Of a stretch of 64,000 nt of DNA, positions 16,967-33,790 are shown piece after piece. The stretch is from Sodiomyces alkalinus F11 (Eukaryota > Ascomycota > Sordariomycetes > Glomerellales > Plectosphaerellaceae): NCBI RefSeq assembly GCF_003711515.1, contig NW_021167081.1, positions 868,001-932,000 on the forward strand, in the 5' to 3' direction. A model generated the notes under the pieces. That model did no database searches. It saw only the letters and a program-made list of their open reading frames with translations, and had not been told where the DNA came from. The first letter of the stretch is position 1. Each line of letters begins with the position of its first letter. The position numbers and the translations under genes were made by a program.

Positions 16967-19900
16967 CTAGAAGAATTTCCCCTTCTTCTTCTTATTCGTG
17001 TTCTTGGGCGCGGATTGGCCGAGAATGTCATCAAAAGTCATAGTCGGGTGCGAGGCTGGAGGGTCCTGCGCCTGGGCTCGCAGATTGCTAGCCGACGCGC
17101 TGCCCCGCAGGCCTGCGCCATTGATACCCAAAGAGCGACTGTCGGAGATACTACTGCCGCGGCTACTCACTACTCGAGATCCCCGGTCGCCAGGCATGCC
17201 GTTAGCCGGCATGGGTAGAGGTACTGGCTCGAGGCCGATGGCGATGCTCGAGCGATACGTTGAGCTCCGGGCGGCCAAGCTTCGACCCGAGGGAGAGGCG
17301 TTGCGAGGTCGGCCGACGTACTTGGGAGACCCGCCCGGGGGGGGAGACGGGTTCGACGGGCCCGTGTAGGGTGACGGGTTCAGAACGGGACCGTCCTGCT
17401 CCGTGAATATGGGTGGTGGTGCCAGAGGCGACATGATGGGCTCCGACGGGTGTGTCATGTCTCCCTCTTCGCCAGTCTCCCACCTCTTTGCCGCTTGCCA
17501 GCAATGGCTGCGGTGATAGATGGCTTCCACGCTAAACATGACCGTGTCGGCGGAGAGCTCGACGTAGCCAGCACCCCCGGACACTTCGTACCACATTTTG
17601 CGCACCTGTCGAGCGTCGTCGAGCCAGGGCGGATTGCCCATCGGCGGTTCGCACAGAAAGTACTCCACACCTTCGGTGTACTGTAATCCCGGCGCATCGA
17701 TGACCAGCATAGGAAGTGATTGGATCACCACATAGAGAAACAACCAATATCCTACGCGATGGTCGGCTAGGTCGGCAGCGGTCTTCCCCCGGGCCTCTGA
17801 GTGCTCGAAGGCCTTGAACTCCGACAGGAAAGGAACCTTGAGGGTGTTTGTGTCGTAGTTATAAGCCTTGTGGAGAATGAGCATAAGCTCGTGTTCCTTG
17901 ATGCGCTTGTCGAACTTGGTCTGTTCCTTGGCCGACAATTTGTCGTATGTTTCAAGCACAGCCCGCATCGAGGGTATCTGGGGGACGTCGAAGGGGATCG
18001 GCGGGAGCACCGGAGGCGTAGAAGTGTCATACTCGGTGAGAACCTTCCTGAGCGCAGACATCATCGCACTGTCTTCGGACGACTCCCCGGTCCCTCCGTT
18101 GATCATCCGGGGGGTCAGAGACTCGCGATCCACGAGGAGATCATATAAGGCGCACATGTCGGAGTAGAGAGCCTTGAGCACCAGTCGGTTGAGTCCGCTC
18201 TCGGTGAAACGATTCTTCTTGCTGCTTGCCTTAGGGGGCCAGTTGCCGAAAGTGGACTTGTAGTAGCCCAGGACAAACTGACGCATCTTGTTGAAGGCGG
18301 CGCGCCACTTGCCGAAGCGAACGCTCTTCACCTCGGCTATCGAGTTAGAAGCAGCGATGCCCGAGAAGAGCGACGGAAACTCAAATTGCTCGAGTCGGAG
18401 GTTCACATTATCTTGCCGGTTGACCAAGTCAAGATGAGCTCGCTCGAGCTTTTGCCGCGTGTGCGATGAGACCTGGTCAAACAAACCGGACTTGAGGTCA
18501 ATGATGGCTGTGTACTTCCCGACCGCATGTGAGAAAGCTTCGTTGTACAGGTCCATAGCATGCATTCGCTCTGCGAGAATAAGCGACTCTATCGTCTTTT
18601 CGCGGCTGTGCCTCACATCCGCAAGACTCAACTGGTCACAAAAGAAGCCGAAGCTCATATCGACAGATTCCCCAAAGCCGGAACCTCCAAGATCCGTGAA
18701 GAGGAACTCGTGCAGGAGGGCGGAGATCTCCAGGAACGCGGCGAAAGCGGTCGGATGGGCCCTAGTAGCTACCAATGGCTGGCCAGTCAAGAAGGCGAAC
18801 AGGTTTCGAAGAGCAATGAGTCGGTCAAAGTCGGCGCGTTGAGGTTGTGGCTGTCCCGGTGTAGGGTGACCCTTCTGCGGTGGGGATGCGGCGCCAGGCA
18901 GATACAATCTGACTTCGTGCGGGTTATTCTGTCCCTCCAGTGGAGGAGAATTCGGACGCGAGAAGGCCCTGCCCCGTGCGTCGTCGGCAGCAAAGCTATC
19001 ACGTCCGATGAAGCCCTTGGATTGAGTTGTCGCGGGATCGGTTTCGGGGCCCATCTCAGCCTGTATTAGGTCGTTAAACACTTGCGAAGCGCTGATAGCA
19101 TATGTCGGGACTTTAAAGGACGGCCCACAACCGCTGTTCCGTGGGAACAAGTAGACGTATACGGTACCCGACTCGTTCCATAGTTCAGGGACCTATGCCG
19201 TACCGGGTCTGTCAGATTGGGAAATCCGCGTACAATGCAGGGTAGCCAAGGGGCTTGGGTAAGCATCTTACCTTTTCACCGCACAGCAGAAACGACGTCT
19301 TATACTCCCCCACGGCATCCTGTCCCAGCATCCAGGCAGACGCACGACTTGGCGTCCCCATGTCCTGCGAACCGGACCGTGAGCGTCCACCAGGAAGCAA
19401 GCTTCTGCGAAGCTTCCCTCCTCGCTTATCATCCCTGGTCGGGCTCTGGCTGTTGTTGACCATGCTAGACGTCGAGACAACTCCGGATCCGGTGTTAGGA
19501 TTAGGAGGGGCTGCACGCTGAACCGATGTGCTTCTTCCTCTCGTCTCAGGACCAGGAGAGGTGGTTCGGTACGGAACGCCCGGCACGGGCAAGCTCGGCT
19601 TGCGCACTTGGTGGTGATAGGAGCTGCTCCGCGGTCGAGCCATATGAGGGTCGCCTGGCCTTCCACGAAACTGGGCTTCGTCGAAGCCTACCAGTGAATC
19701 TCGACGGGGCGGATGTGATAGCGGAGGAGGGGGAGGAGGAGGAAGAGGAGGAAGAGGCATCATCGGCGGGGATTGGCTATGAGGTTTCCGTAGGCGGGTC
19801 TGGTTCTGGTTCTCGATAGTGGTATGAGGGACGGTGCGAGAGACGTCTGGCGGCGGCGGGGACGGCGGCGACATTGCGGACGGCACGATTTTAGCAGGCG

Positions 19901-22258: not shown

Positions 22259-22266
22259 TATAAATA
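22259..22266 (+). promoter_or_regulatory. TATA box of the U2 snRNA gene
   Basis: TATAAATA lies about 50 bp upstream of the inferred U2 5' end (about 22311), followed by a pyrimidine-rich initiator region (CTCTTCTTACCC...). Position and sequence suit a Pol II snRNA promoter. No proximal element could be defined. Confidence 0.6.
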
Positions 22267-22310
22267 GTTGCGCCCTCGACCTCTTCTTACCCTTTTCTTC
22301 TCTTCTTCTT

Positions 22311-22560
22311 TAGCTCTCTTTGGTACGTTGAACCCGACCCCTACCCTCGACTTCCAGTCGCATTTGCTAACGGCTTTCCCCCTCTGCAGCCTTTTGGCTT
22401 AGATCAAGTGTAGTATCTGTTCTTTTCAGTTTAATCTCTGAAAGGTCTCTAAGGAGACCAATCGTGATTAATCTTATTTTTGGCTCTCGGACGGGGCCCT
22501 CTGTGCTTGCACATGACCCTATCCACTGTGTCCCTGGTATTACACTGTCTCCAGGTGACG
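22311..22560 (+). ncRNA. U2 spliceosomal snRNA, split by an intron
   Basis: U2 snRNA pairs with intron branch points and with U6 in the spliceosome. From 22390 the sequence is unmistakable: CCTTTTGGCTTAGATC, then GTGTAGTATCTG with the branch-point-pairing GTAGTA, stem-loop IIa (CTGTTCTTTTCAG...), a perfect IIb hairpin (GGTCTC-TAAG-GAGACC, 22444-22459), the Sm site ATTTTTGG (22476-22483), and stem-loop IV (CCTGGTATTACACTG ... CCAGG, 22533-22555). The conserved bases that should precede CCTTTTGG are absent there. They occur 67 bp upstream as CTCTCTTTG (22314-22322), directly before a GTACGT donor. Exons are therefore about 22311-22322 and 22390-22560. Both mature ends are approximate (5' by a few bases, 3' within about 10). 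The gene converges with RAD17. Confidence 0.95.
22323..22389 (+). other. mRNA-type intron inside the U2 snRNA gene
   Basis: This 67-nt segment has every hallmark of a spliceosomal intron: donor GTACGT at 22323, branch point TGCTAAC at 22365-22371 (branch A at 22370, 19 nt before the end), a pyrimidine-rich tract (CTTTCCCCCTCT) and acceptor CTGCAG ending at 22389. Excision joins CTCTCTTTG to CCTTTTGGCTTAG, the order found at the 5' end of yeast U2 snRNAs as I remember them. The insertion falls in the 5' stem-loop I / U2-U6 helix II region. Splicing itself is inferred, not shown. Confidence 0.85.
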
Positions 22561-23057
22561 CGAATGGCATCAGTCACTTCATTTTTCATTGTATGTCCCT
22601 GCTTGTCTGGGGCTGCGAAGAAGAATAGCTTCTGGTTTGAACATATATATGCCCCTCCTTGTAATGTTGACTTCGTACTATTCCCATGTGCCAGAAGTGA
22701 TCGCGGGTATAATACGGTGGATGAATTTTTACGACTGCTTTTCATCCTGGGAGGCCTGACGAGAGCGGCTGTGTGGTGTTTTGGTGATGGTAACAGTGAA
22801 TACTCCATTCGAGCTTATTATTTCACTGAGATTTGGGAAACCGACTACGAATATAAAAGTCGTTGAAAGCTTAGGCCGGCAACGACCAAGGCACAAGAAT
22901 ATGCTACTGTTTATTTACCTCGACTCCATTCCCGTGTCCGTGTCCGAAGCCATCCCAAACGTGCCTTCTACCACCCACCAACGCCAACCCGAAATATGAC
23001 TCTTTATGTCACAGAAATATCAGCAAGGTGTTTCCCATTCTTGTGGGAAATGCTGCC
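22561..23057. other. Intergenic, 3' of U2 and 3' of RAD17
   Basis: Short convergent intergenic space. A 128-codon open frame overlapping the 3' half of U2 and this region is a chance frame. No terminator or 3'-box could be assigned. Confidence 0.55.
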
Positions 23058-25772
23058 CTAATCATCCTCGATATCATCATCGCTTATTACCAGGCTCTGC
23101 ATGCCCAGTCTAGAGGTGGAGCCGTCGCTTCTCGCCCGGATGGCCACCGCCTTCTTCCGCGGAGACGATTCCTCCGATGGCCTGTCCGTTGCCCAGGCTT
23201 CCGCGGTCAATACTCCGCCTTCCTCCTCCGTGATAGCCGCCTCATCCCCAGACTCGTCTTCGGGACCAATACCGCGGAAGGACACCACCTTTTCGATATC
23301 TCGCAGTCTCAAGGCATGCAACGACGCGCCCTTGCGTCCACGGGCGATCTGCGCCATGTACGGCAGCCGCTCGAGCAACATCTCCCTGCGCGCCGCGCTC
23401 CCCAATGACAGGAGCGGCACCGCACCGCCCGCCTCGGGATTCTGCTGTCCCCCAGCGGCAGCAGCAGCTAACGACGACGACGACGATGATGATGATGATC
23501 CCTTAGATTGCTGCGCCGCTACCCAACTGCCGCTACTGCTGCCCGTGCCCATCTCCTTCGGTCGCCGAAAGGCCGCGGCACCCTGTGTGACGTCTTTCCG
23601 AGCGGCGCTCTCCTCTCCTTTCAAGAGCTTCGTCGACCAGAGGTCCACCAGGCCTTCCATCTCCTCTTTGCTCCGCCAGAGCTTGATGCTCGTCGGGTAG
23701 AACATCTTGAAGGCGTCACTCCCCTTGGTGCCCGTCGGCGCTTTCCGCTTGACCGGGGACGGCAATGAAAAGAGCAAGCCGCGAACCGCCACCTGAAACG
23801 TCATCTCGTCCTGTCTTAGCACGTGGCTGCTGGAATCCTTGCCTACAAATCCGGCCGGGTGGCCTCTTCCGCCGAAGAAAATGTCCCACGAGGGACAAAG
23901 CAGGTCGCTTTGCGACAGGTACTCGATGCACCCGTTGATGTAATCCAGAGATGATGAGGGGTCTCGAGGATCCTGGCTCTCGCACGAGAGCACGTAGTTT
24001 TCGTGCAGCGCAGAGACAAACGTGTGCGTGTCCGTCCCGGTTTCGTCGATCAACGTGTCAATCGACACCTGGGACCGGTTCGGACGAACGTACTGTGACA
24101 TGTAGCTCGGCAGCACCTCAACCGTATCGTCGGGCGGCGGTCGTTCGTCTCTCTTGTTGTAAACGACCTTGCCAACCGCATGGAAAACGCCCAGGCTGGC
24201 CTCGCGTTGCGAAACGAGCTCGAGACTGTCCGCCTCGCCTTTGGTCAACGCGATTCCATCTCTGGCGCCCTTCTTGGGCTTGGTGAAGGCAACCTTTGCG
24301 CCCCAATCGGCTTCGTGGTCCCCCTTCAGACAGAGAAACTCGAGCGAAGATATAGCGCTTCGTATGTCTCCGATTTTCCCCAGTCGCTTCAGCACGAGCG
24401 GCCCCGGTGTGCGCCGCCGACCAGACTTCCGTGCCTCCTTTATAACGACAAGCTCGAGAGCCTTGGCAAGAATCGAGGGCGCGATGGGGTTGAACTCGAT
24501 GATACCTGTCCCCGGATGGCGGAGGATTTCAGGTCCCAGCAGGCGGTGAGCCGTGAAACTGTCTGCCGAGGCGGATGTCGTCGTCAGTAGCGTTTCCGAG
24601 ATGATCATAACCACGGGTGTGATGGGCTTGTCGAGTGGTTGCCGCCCAAACGTGGCAAGGGCTGGGGTGTTGGTAGCCAGGTAATCTAGTATCGTATTTC
24701 TGAATGATGTCAGGGCGCTTGAAGATCGCGCAAAGGTATTGGGGAACTCTTCAATCAGAATAACCCGTCGCGAAGGCTGGTCGGGTTGCCTTCCACTGGT
24801 ACCAAGTGACGCATCGGGCCTCTCGAGGTCCGTATCAAGCTGACCAAAGTGGCCGCCTCTTCCCAAAAATTCCTGAAACTGCGCCGAAGCAGACTGGAAG
24901 CCAGTGTTGCCCACCAGGGCCACTGTCGGGTTTCTCCACTCCAGAAGCTCGAATCCTAGGTCCCTCGCCAGCAACCGCATGGCGGTCGTCTTGCCCGAGC
25001 CGGCCGCGCCTTTGAGAAGCAACAGCCGTTGGCGCATGCGTCCGCCCATGACATCCTCCAACCACCTCCTGACGTCTGCCACCTTCTTCTTATGTACGGC
25101 CAGCTCTTCCAGGTTAATCGGTGCGAAACGCTCGGCCCAGGGTCGCAAGTCGTCGTCGACGGTCGTCGTCGGCTGATGAGGTCGCGGGGGCTTGAGAAAC
25201 TTTTGGCTCGAGTTAAGTGCTATTGCGGGACCGTGACCGGTGTGGGGAACCCCATCCCCAAGCCGCCTCCGCGCATTTTTGCCCACTAAGCTGCTGCTGC
25301 TTGCTTTCTTATCCGCGATGTCGTCATCGTCAGAGATAGGGTCGCTGATGATATCGTCGACGGGGGTGGTCTTGGATGGAGGCTTGGGCTGTGTTGGTGC
25401 CTTCTGGGTTTGGTTTGCAAAGAGTGTCAACAAGTCGGCAGACTTGCCCTTCTCTTCAGTCTTGACGCGTTTCTTGCTCCTCGACTTGGGTTTCTCGGGG
25501 CTGGTACTCGGACTTCTGGGAACTTGGTTCGGGAGAGTCCGAGAGGAAGAGGCCCGGATCGTGGATTGAGACGCGCGTGTCAGGCGAGTCGGTTCCTTGG
25601 AAGGGCTCGGAGAAGCCGCAGGTGCTCTGCTATGAAGACTTGTTGACGTTATCTTTGAACTAGGGGAGGATAAGAGAAAATTGGTCAGAGTATTTGCGGG
25701 GGGGTTCTCGTCGTCACCATCCGAATCGTGGACGACGTTTCGCTTCCTGCGTTTCGCAGGCGGCGGCGCCAT
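23058..25772 (-). CDS. RAD17: Checkpoint clamp loader subunit Rad17/Rad24
   Basis: Large subunit of the alternative RFC complex that loads the 9-1-1 clamp at damaged DNA in the nucleus. An intronless frame of 904 residues. A basic, Ser/Pro-rich N terminus (PPPAKRRKRN, a likely nuclear localisation signal) precedes the conserved PWAERFAPINLEELAVHKKKV block. The Walker A motif GAAGSGKTT lies at 255-263, followed by a Walker-B-like RRVILIEEFPNTF; ILIEEFPN corresponds to the diverged Rad17 ILVEDLPN. FNPIAPSILAKAL and GDIRSAISSLEFL match the RFC-like lid/collar region. The C-terminal part has a Ser run coded by GAC/GAT-like repeats (about 23476-23502 on the plus strand) and an acidic tail (ISDDDIEDD). 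Lack of introns contrasts with the intron-rich neighbours. The start ATG is in good context and family length fits. Confidence 0.93.
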   Translation of the reverse strand: MAPPPAKRRKRNVVHDSDGDDENPPANTLTNFLLSSPSSKITSTSLHSRAPAASPSPSKEPTRLTRASQSTIRASSSRTLPNQVPRSPSTSPEKPKSRSKKRVKTEEKGKSADLLTLFANQTQKAPTQPKPPSKTTPVDDIISDPISDDDDIADKKASSSSLVGKNARRRLGDGVPHTGHGPAIALNSSQKFLKPPRPHQPTTTVDDDLRPWAERFAPINLEELAVHKKKVADVRRWLEDVMGGRMRQRLLLLKGAAGSGKTTAMRLLARDLGFELLEWRNPTVALVGNTGFQSASAQFQEFLGRGGHFGQLDTDLERPDASLGTSGRQPDQPSRRVILIEEFPNTFARSSSALTSFRNTILDYLATNTPALATFGRQPLDKPITPVVMIISETLLTTTSASADSFTAHRLLGPEILRHPGTGIIEFNPIAPSILAKALELVVIKEARKSGRRRTPGPLVLKRLGKIGDIRSAISSLEFLCLKGDHEADWGAKVAFTKPKKGARDGIALTKGEADSLELVSQREASLGVFHAVGKVVYNKRDERPPPDDTVEVLPSYMSQYVRPNRSQVSIDTLIDETGTDTHTFVSALHENYVLSCESQDPRDPSSSLDYINGCIEYLSQSDLLCPSWDIFFGGRGHPAGFVGKDSSSHVLRQDEMTFQVAVRGLLFSLPSPVKRKAPTGTKGSDAFKMFYPTSIKLWRSKEEMEGLVDLWSTKLLKGEESAARKDVTQGAAAFRRPKEMGTGSSSGSWVAAQQSKGSSSSSSSSSLAAAAAGGQQNPEAGGAVPLLSLGSAARREMLLERLPYMAQIARGRKGASLHALRLRDIEKVVSFRGIGPEDESGDEAAITEEEGGVLTAEAWATDRPSEESSPRKKAVAIRARSDGSTSRLGMQSLVISDDDIEDD

Positions 25773-31974: not shown

Positions 31975-33790
31975 CTACTTCAAAATATGCGGTACTATAT
32001 CTTCTGACCTGGGCCAAGCCGGGAGAACGTCAACAATGATGCCCGAAACAGCACCTAGGTAATCGGCCCAGAAGCCGGCGTCGGAGTCCACTCCCTCAAG
32101 GAGTCCTCTGAGATTCCTGTATAGCTGGGCATCGATAGCGCCAAGATTTGCTCCCCAGCGAGCGCAGACAGTCAAGCCAAGCACAGCTCGAGCAAGGTGG
32201 GTAAGACCAGGTGCACTGGGATCTCTCGTGACAGCTTCGTGTAGCGCGTATGAGGCGTTGGCGCCATCATCCTCCCCCTGGTGAACCCAGATCTGGCGAG
32301 CAAAGAGTAGGCCTAGGCCGAGCGAGAAGATGGTAGGAGTTTTCGATAAATCAACGTCAACAGGAACGGCATTGAACAATGTCTGCAGAATGGCTTGCGC
32401 CACAGGCATATCAGAGGGGTTGATGCCAGCTAGGACCTCTAGGGGATTGCTCTCTCGTATGTGCTTGGGCAGTTTCATGTAAAGTGCACCATCCCGGTTG
32501 GAGCCGGCGCAGAAGGTCACGGTCCGGATCCAGGGGACGGTGTCAATCAAGGCCTCGACGACTTCGGCGATGGCAGGAAACTGCTGGCGCCTGCGACTAG
32601 ACATGCCGTAAATCTTGCCGTCGTGCTCCGCGTTGAATCGGCGCATTCTATCAACCTGCTTGAAGTATTCGCCGCTAACGGTATATGTCCCGACAGATGG
32701 GATGGGGTAGGGTTGGATGGGGTCGTTGTGCATCAGCATGCATCCATAGCCCCTAAAGCCCCCGCCACAAAGGTACACATCGATGCCTTGACGATGCCCC
32801 TCAGCCTCTACCCGGCTCGCTTTCATGGTCTCGATTGAGTGGCTTAACGCCGGAAATTTGTCGCAAATCTTGGAAAAGGCAGCCCGCATACTGGTTCGCA
32901 GTTTGGTCGTTTCCATGGTGCGGACCTTGGCGGATGATCCCTCGAGCACTTTGATCAGTCGGGCCGCGCCGAAAGGCATGCTCTCGCCTGCGGTCGCGGC
33001 AGCTACTTCGTATGCGGGCAGCCGTGTATCGACCCATGTCATCTGGACGGAGCCACCACCAAGATCAAGGAAGAGTCCACCGCGAGAGATGTCAACCAAG
33101 GTAGAACGGGATCCCATGACGGCGCCGAACAGAGTCTCAACCTCAGGAGCGAGAACGTGGACACCGACGCCGGCAGCGGCTCGGATGGCGTCGAGCATGA
33201 CGGCGGCGTTGGACGCACGGCGCATAGCCTCGGTAGCGAGGACAGAGAAATGGGCGAGAGGGACATCATAGGAGTCGGCAATGCGGCGGAAGCGGGCGAC
33301 AGTCTGGGACACCTGGACTATCGTCTCAGGTGGGAATGACAGGGGCTGGTGACCAAGGCCGTCGCTAGTATCGCTATCGCTACTGCAGCTGGAACCGAGG
33401 GCATCGAAGAGTGAAATGGCGGCGCGTTCGCGGTAGATACAGCGCAGAAGGCGAGCCTGGGAAGGCGCCAGGTCCGAGATGGAGAAGCGAATACCATTAC
33501 TTCATGGTTATTTCCGAGATGTTAGCCCGCTTGCTCCTCGCTCTTTTAATTAGGGATGACAAATGTCGCAGAAGGCCAAATGCACCAGCGCTGCGCCCGG
33601 GCATCCAACTAGGCGAGGAGGGAAAACATAGAAACCATACACCAAAAAGCAGAGAGATGAAGTAATAAATGAAGCCGACCAACCTTCCCATGTCGACCAG
33701 AGCAAAGAGATGACTGGGACCTACGGGGTCCCATGGTGGCAGCCGTGCGTCGAGATTATCAATCGTGATGATGTCAGAACGATTGGCCAT
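31975..33790 (-). CDS. RTG2: Retrograde regulation protein 2-like Ppx/GppA-family protein
   Basis: Member of the exopolyphosphatase/guanosine-pentaphosphatase ATPase superfamily, closest by features to fungal Rtg2, which relays mitochondrial status to nuclear genes in yeast. Two exons, 33790-33684 and 33499-31975, are joined in a Ser codon and give 543 residues. The junction restores the superfamily phosphate-binding motif VDMGSNGIRFSISDL (about 33-47). The second hallmark is LFLDLGGGSVQMTWVD, followed by ESMPFGAARL and YLCGGGFRGYG. The intron (33500-33683) uses a less common GTTGGT donor, but no other junction restores the motif. Enzymatic activity versus a purely regulatory role cannot be decided from sequence. 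The C-terminal region (about residue 290 on) is the Rtg2-type extension. Confidence 0.9.

Follow-up and report, generated by a model that had tools for sequence, protein, structure and literature searches.

An mRNA-type intron is said to have been described by Takahashi et al. in 1993 in the U2 snRNA of Rhodotorula hasegawae, just downstream of the branch-recognition region. Introns of fungal U6 snRNAs were reportedly treated by Tani and Ohshima in 1989 and by Canzler et al. in 2016. They are also discussed in PMC9518982 and PMC7827515, and Canzler et al. 2017 (PMC5832005) describe a near-5' spliceosomal U3 intron in the great majority of Pezizomycotina in their analysis.

In the filamentous ascomycete Sodiomyces alkalinus, a soda-lake fungus of the Plectosphaerellaceae (Glomerellales, Sordariomycetes), a comparable interruption was found in U2. 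The putative intron resembles that of R. hasegawae in being an mRNA-type intron in a fungal U2 snRNA gene. The Rhodotorula site reportedly lies past the branch-recognition region, whereas the S. alkalinus site follows nt 11 and is present in three paralogues of a filamentous ascomycete; an insertion at nt 11/12, upstream of stem-loop I, is not of the Rhodotorula type. With the fungal U6 introns it shares that a spliceosomal intron resides in a spliceosomal RNA gene, and the U6 of S. alkalinus also has one. U6 is a Pol III gene, however, whereas S. alkalinus U2 would be of the capped Pol II type with a cap-proximal exon of 11 nt. The fungal U3 introns of PMC5832005 are likewise near-5' and spliceosomal, and the U3 of S. 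alkalinus fits this picture. As U3 acts in rRNA processing, its splicing is not self-referential, unlike that of U2. The S. alkalinus U2 intron would represent a new position and a new lineage, common to all copies found, while a U2 intron at another site is known from Rhodotorula; no report of U2 introns in filamentous ascomycetes was found in the open-access literature among the matches listed.

Organization of the U2 gene

The analysed window comprised 64,000 nt of the S. alkalinus F11 genome, and the U2 gene is located on its plus strand. From position 22390 on, a textbook U2 was read, consisting of stem-loop I, the branch-recognition sequence GTAGTA (22410-22415), further stem-loops, the Sm site ATTTTTGG (22476-22483, placed by the Rfam RF00004 alignment) and stem-loops III and IV. 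According to the same alignment, this part, designated exon 2, extends from stem-loop I to stem-loop IV at 22390-22561, the 3' end being approximate. The block at 22583-22624 (TTTTCATTG ... GCGAAGAAGA) was aligned in the 3' flanks of the three U2 paralogues, and its presence downstream of all three genes makes it a possible 3'-end formation element.

The letters in front of exon 2 do not continue a U2 gene in an obvious way. TGCTAAC and GGCTTTCCCCCTCTGCAG stand directly before it, and AGCTCTCTTTG followed by GTACGT is found 67 bp upstream: CTCTCTTTG ends at 22322, GTACGT starts at 22323, CTGCAG ends at 22389 and CCTTTTGGCTTAG begins at 22390. An earlier note on this DNA had pointed to these splice-site-like letters and to the upstream GTACGT; both are present where it placed them, and the arrangement is repeated in all three U2 loci found in the genome. 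The 11-nt exon 1, AGCTCTCTTTG, occupies 22312-22322, is the same in the three paralogues and pairs with the U6 3' tail. It is followed by a spliceosomal-type intron of 67 bp (22323-22389). The 5' splice site GTACGT, together with the conserved intron 5' segment GTACGTTGAACCCGACCCC, covers 22323-22341, where 17 of the 19 positions are invariant among the three paralogues. The branch site TGCTAAC (22365-22371) is invariant in 7 of 7 positions, with 19 nt from the branch A to the intron end, and the polypyrimidine tract with the 3' splice site CAG takes up 22372-22389. Upstream of exon 1, a TATA box (TATAAATA, 22259-22266) lies 53 bp before the exon-1 A, and a pyrimidine tract (22290-22311) adjoins the presumed transcription start; at the U1 loci a similar tract ends with TTCTTC immediately before A. 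Conservation of the intron start thus extends past the 5' splice site, over 22329-22341 (TGAACCCGACCCC).

The ends GT...AG and the motif GCTAAC, which characterize a GT-AG intron, were found in all three U2 introns. The distances from the branch A to the intron end were 19, 17 and 15 nt, within the 6-36 nt given for the branch-to-acceptor distance, beside the branch consensus RCTRAY, in the fungal intron criteria of PMC5832005. At +4 the donor GTACGT deviates from GTRWGT, the consensus that 88 of 136 canonical U3 donors obey according to the same source. In the window, the pattern GTACGT-N20-50-GCTAAC-N5-25-CAG was detected twice versus 0.04 expected from shuffles. The second match, from 31228 on the plus strand, is situated among short open frames and may be an intron of a protein gene. 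Across the genome, GTACGT was counted at 5 candidate splice sites compared with 1.9 expected, a weak and confounded excess in which the window's U2 intron is itself one of the five. The candidates numbered 486 in all versus 759 expected from first-order Markov shuffles, and 17 of the 29 sources had been fetched for matching the U2 intron start. A genome-wide preference for GTACGT as 5' splice site was rejected as evidence due to the low power and the biased choice of sources.

Three protein genes of the same window were noted as well. The ORF at 16967-19150 on the minus strand shares 100% identity over its 727 aa with SODALDRAFT_331853 of S. alkalinus F11. The Rad17-like ORF at 23058-25772 on the minus strand has its nearest named relative in S. 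alcalophilus (85%), and the RTG2/Ppx-like gene at 33420-33760, also on the minus strand, has an intron with GCTAAC and an apparent AAG 3' end.

U2 copies in the genome

Three U2 loci were detected in the S. alkalinus genome by a core-pattern search that tolerated 3 mismatches, and all three were exact matches with 0 mismatches. Besides the window locus, they lie at G000:C2:5553749-5553940 and G000:C1:1494051-1494244. The Rfam model RF00004 also resulted in three loci (46 of the 689 first-look candidates were scored), with 152.5, 151.2 and 143.6 bits (cut-off 46), each over model positions 1-192; these scores refer to unspliced DNA only. The window locus was matched at 22377-22569 with 152.5 bits, which supplied the model search of the unspliced sequence that the earlier note had proposed as a check.

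All three loci are split at the same place, reading exon 1 + GTACGTTGA...TGCTAAC...YAG + exon 2, with intron lengths of 67, 88 and 81 bp. The recurrence of one arrangement in three loci, with an identical exon 1 and differing intron lengths, is the strongest argument against chance. In the comparison of the paralogues, 11 of 11 nt of exon 1 and 148 of 173 alignment columns of exon 2 were invariant, versus 35 of 134 columns in the promoters and 35 of 90 in the introns. Among the 35 invariant intron columns, 17 fall into the first 19 positions and 7 into the branch heptamer; outside the 5' segment and the branch site, the introns have diverged among the paralogues, as have the promoters.

An uninterrupted U2 was not found in the genome, either as a fourth copy by the core pattern or by the junction sequence with up to 3 mismatches. 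The single exception to the latter was a 3-mismatch match at C2:1515519, outside the U2 loci, and a search with the reversed control pattern yielded one match too. The search for a second, intronless copy, by which the proposed intron was to be checked, thus found only split loci. The three loci could in principle be pseudogenes or minor copies, with a working uninterrupted U2 absent from the assembly, which is in 22 contigs, has stretches read as N and may be incomplete. All three, however, have TATA boxes, an intact core, the Sm site, stem IV and the conserved 3' flank. Their splice signals were kept although the intron bodies changed, a pattern that selection for splicing would produce, and no fourth copy matched the core pattern, so that this explanation appears barely credible.

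Position of the 5' end of U2

The full-length Rfam match of the unspliced sequence is a counterpoint to an intron. It begins at 22377, inside the supposed intron, and the 13 nt before CCTTTTGG partially match the RF00004 5' end with one inserted base. If transcription started at about 22377, no intron would be needed and the upstream CTCTCTTTG would be a chance occurrence or a promoter element. Stem-loop I can also be formed from the intron 3' end. The determined folding energies were -8.6, -7.4 and -8.6 kcal/mol for the three intron 3' ends versus -8.3 kcal/mol for the spliced end, and since the former form the stem about as well as the latter, stem-loop I was rejected as a discriminator. PMC2780460 gives a Neurospora crassa U2 numbering of A31/G32, which would fit a 5' end 13 nt before CCUUUUGG, like the Rfam end here, and decides nothing.

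The spacing from the TATA box was informative. The distances from TATA to the exon-1 A were 53, 53/51 and 62/60 bp at the three U2 loci, and those to the U1 5' end were 60, 62/60, 56 and 66-52 bp. With the start at the Rfam 5' end, the distances at the U2 loci would be 118, 139/137 and 141/139 bp; a start 118-141 bp from TATA stands against 52-66 bp for U1. The yardstick consists of the four U1 genes, out of five, that have a scored TATA; the fifth U1 and the U4 lack a scored TATA[AT] and have only TATA-like strings seen by eye, and U5 and U3 were left out since their 5' ends are too uncertain.

The pairing with U6 (helix II) pointed in the same direction. Exon 1 pairs along its full length with the U6 3' tail of this genome, the U6 strand having a single bulge, at -12.9 kcal/mol. 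The six unspliced ends (the last 11 and 13 nt of the three introns) reached only -4.3 to -7.3 kcal/mol, by which helix II would be largely lost. The exon-1 value was reached by 20 of 63,990 window 11-mers from both strands and by 1 of 2,000 shuffles. A U2 5' end capable of helix II is thus present in the spliced form and only poorly in the unspliced one. The first 47 nt of S. cerevisiae U2, printed in PMC12359043, were used as the 5'-end reference. Upstream of the junction, the spliced reading matches it over 8 nt and the unspliced over 1 nt, which agrees with the earlier proposal that removal of 22323-22389 restores the U2 5' sequence of yeast. A start within the supposed intron is further contradicted by the upstream 11-mer, which is identical at the three loci despite the differing distances, and by the conservation of TGCTAAC and YAG in what would be a promoter region. 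This possibility is considered extremely improbable.

The TATA spacing and the helix II pairing are independent arguments for splicing and against a start within the intron, and this sequence evidence supports the mRNA-type intron suggested after U2 nt 11. The U2 5' end would lie before GTACGT, as had been assumed, and is best placed at the A of 22312 instead of at 22311. It is highly probable that the three U2 genes detected in S. alkalinus contain a GT-AG spliceosomal intron between nt 11 and 12, that Pol II transcription of the window gene starts at 22312, that the intron is spliced by existing spliceosomes and that the joined end forms helix II.

Other small RNA genes

Only one U6 match above the Rfam cut-off was obtained, with 68.6 bits (47 of 1917 candidates scored), at G000:C18:28181-28338. 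This U6 is split as ACAGAGAAGAU/GUAAGU...ACUAAC...UUUACAG/UAGCAUGG, where the slashes mark the intron borders, and the intron has 58 nt by our own count. The U6 exon-1 pattern matched this place alone at 3 mismatches, a limit at which a diverged copy could be missed. The second U6-like locus (G000:C1:2110152-2110262, minus strand) scored 35.5 bits, below the cut-off. It has a U6-like 3' half and an altered middle, and in place of the 5' half stands TCTAAC...CTATAG, which resembles the 3' end of an intron inserted at a different position. Judged by its sequence it looks like a pseudogene or a remnant; no tRNA was found at this locus.

A single U3 match was obtained (G000:C1:2252300-2252561, minus strand; 24 of 402 candidates scored). 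This gene looks to have a near-5' intron, ...ATACTTCA/GTAAGC...TTTGCTAAC...TTCAG/GAGAATC, and the Rfam model mistakes the 3' end of the intron for the beginning of U3, an artefact also seen with U2. The five U1 matches and one U4 were uninterrupted from model position 1, and the single U5 had a full-length model match. All five U1 loci have AUACUUACCU 5' ends and scored 53-63.6 bits, under the gathering cut-off of 69.5, and an annotation at that cut-off would therefore miss them.

Proposed route, origin and consequences of the intron

RNA polymerase II would begin transcription with the A of AGCTCTCTTTG, some 51-62 bp past the TATA box, and produce a precursor with a capped first exon of 11 nt. 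With a first exon this short, the 5' splice site would almost adjoin the cap. A spliceosome that is already functional would take out the intron through the branch site UGCUAAC, joining AGCUCUCUUUG to CCUUUUGGCUUAG, and the joined 5' end would serve the pairing of U2 with the U6 3' tail. The polymerase, the start site, the splicing and the function, as well as their consequences, are what we infer.

The precursor might in addition regulate itself. The branch site would pair in cis with the precursor's own GUAGUA, unspliced U2 would be inactive, and the output would be tied to the spliceosome supply. In the three predicted precursors, the branch heptamer paired with GUGUAGUA with 4.63, 4.29 and 4.05 expected pairs. 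Shuffled branch heptamers reached the observed value in 6, 0 and 34 of 200 cases, and intron bodies shuffled around unchanged signals reached it in 12, 46 and 62 of 200. As the shuffled-body controls attain the same pairing, it may be a by-product of the closeness of a branch site to the U2 recognition sequence. The cis pairing, although seen in all three folds, was not clearly beyond the controls, and autoregulation of this kind is regarded as an improbable addition to the intron.

The intron may have originated from an excised intron that was reverse-spliced into U2 in an active spliceosome and then reverse transcribed. The insertion site at the border of helix II and stem I would suit such an event, as would the U6 of the same genome, split directly after its ACAGAGAAGAU segment. 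No donor was recognised, however: the first 18 nt of the intron, with up to 2 mismatches, recurred outside the U2 loci at 3 places only, and a single ancient gain with later duplication of the gene could account for the three introns. This origin is regarded as possible though rather doubtful. With up to 3 mismatches, the same 18-nt start gave 34 matches in the genome versus 26 for the reversed control pattern. An amplified intron family or introner-like repeats were not supported, since at up to 2 mismatches the start occurs only at the three U2 loci and the 3 others. The intron 5' segment is not a genomic repeat family, a result compatible with reverse splicing as well as with other routes.

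With every U2 found, and the sole U6 above the Rfam cut-off, interrupted in this way, the making of new spliceosomes would require inherited ones. It is tentatively proposed, as one possibility among others, that both catalytic-core RNAs, U2 from all three detected genes and U6 from the single locus above the cut-off, need pre-existing spliceosomes, inherited via cells and spores, and that U2 output forms an autocatalytic loop, possibly damped by a precursor masking its own branch site. If this is confirmed, DNA by itself would not suffice to rebuild the spliceosome of S. alkalinus, and the self-dependence of splicing, the limit of a cap-proximal first exon (11 nt) and intron gain into snRNAs would become testable. 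U2, the RNA that recognises the branch point, would itself be intron-bearing in every gene found. For annotation, full-length Rfam matches can conceal introns; in U2 this occurs because the intron 3' end can be mistaken for the start of the RNA.

U2 in other sequence collections

The exact U2-core pattern had no match in the collections of genomes or viral contigs. The looser pattern matched three MAG contigs (L041, L042 and L043) in the genome collection and had no match in viral contigs, plasmids or phages. An uninterrupted U2 5' end was observed in L041 and L043, and in L042 the sequence breaks off where the exon-2 part begins. The non-fungal U2 of L041 fits the Rfam 5' end directly and covers the full model; that of L043 matches RF00004 from model position 1 and is cut at its 3' end. 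L041 and L043 look animal- and plant-like. All three are bacterial MAG contigs with a eukaryotic U2, L041 also containing U1, 5S and histone stem-loops, and the U2 sequences in these contigs are probably contamination.
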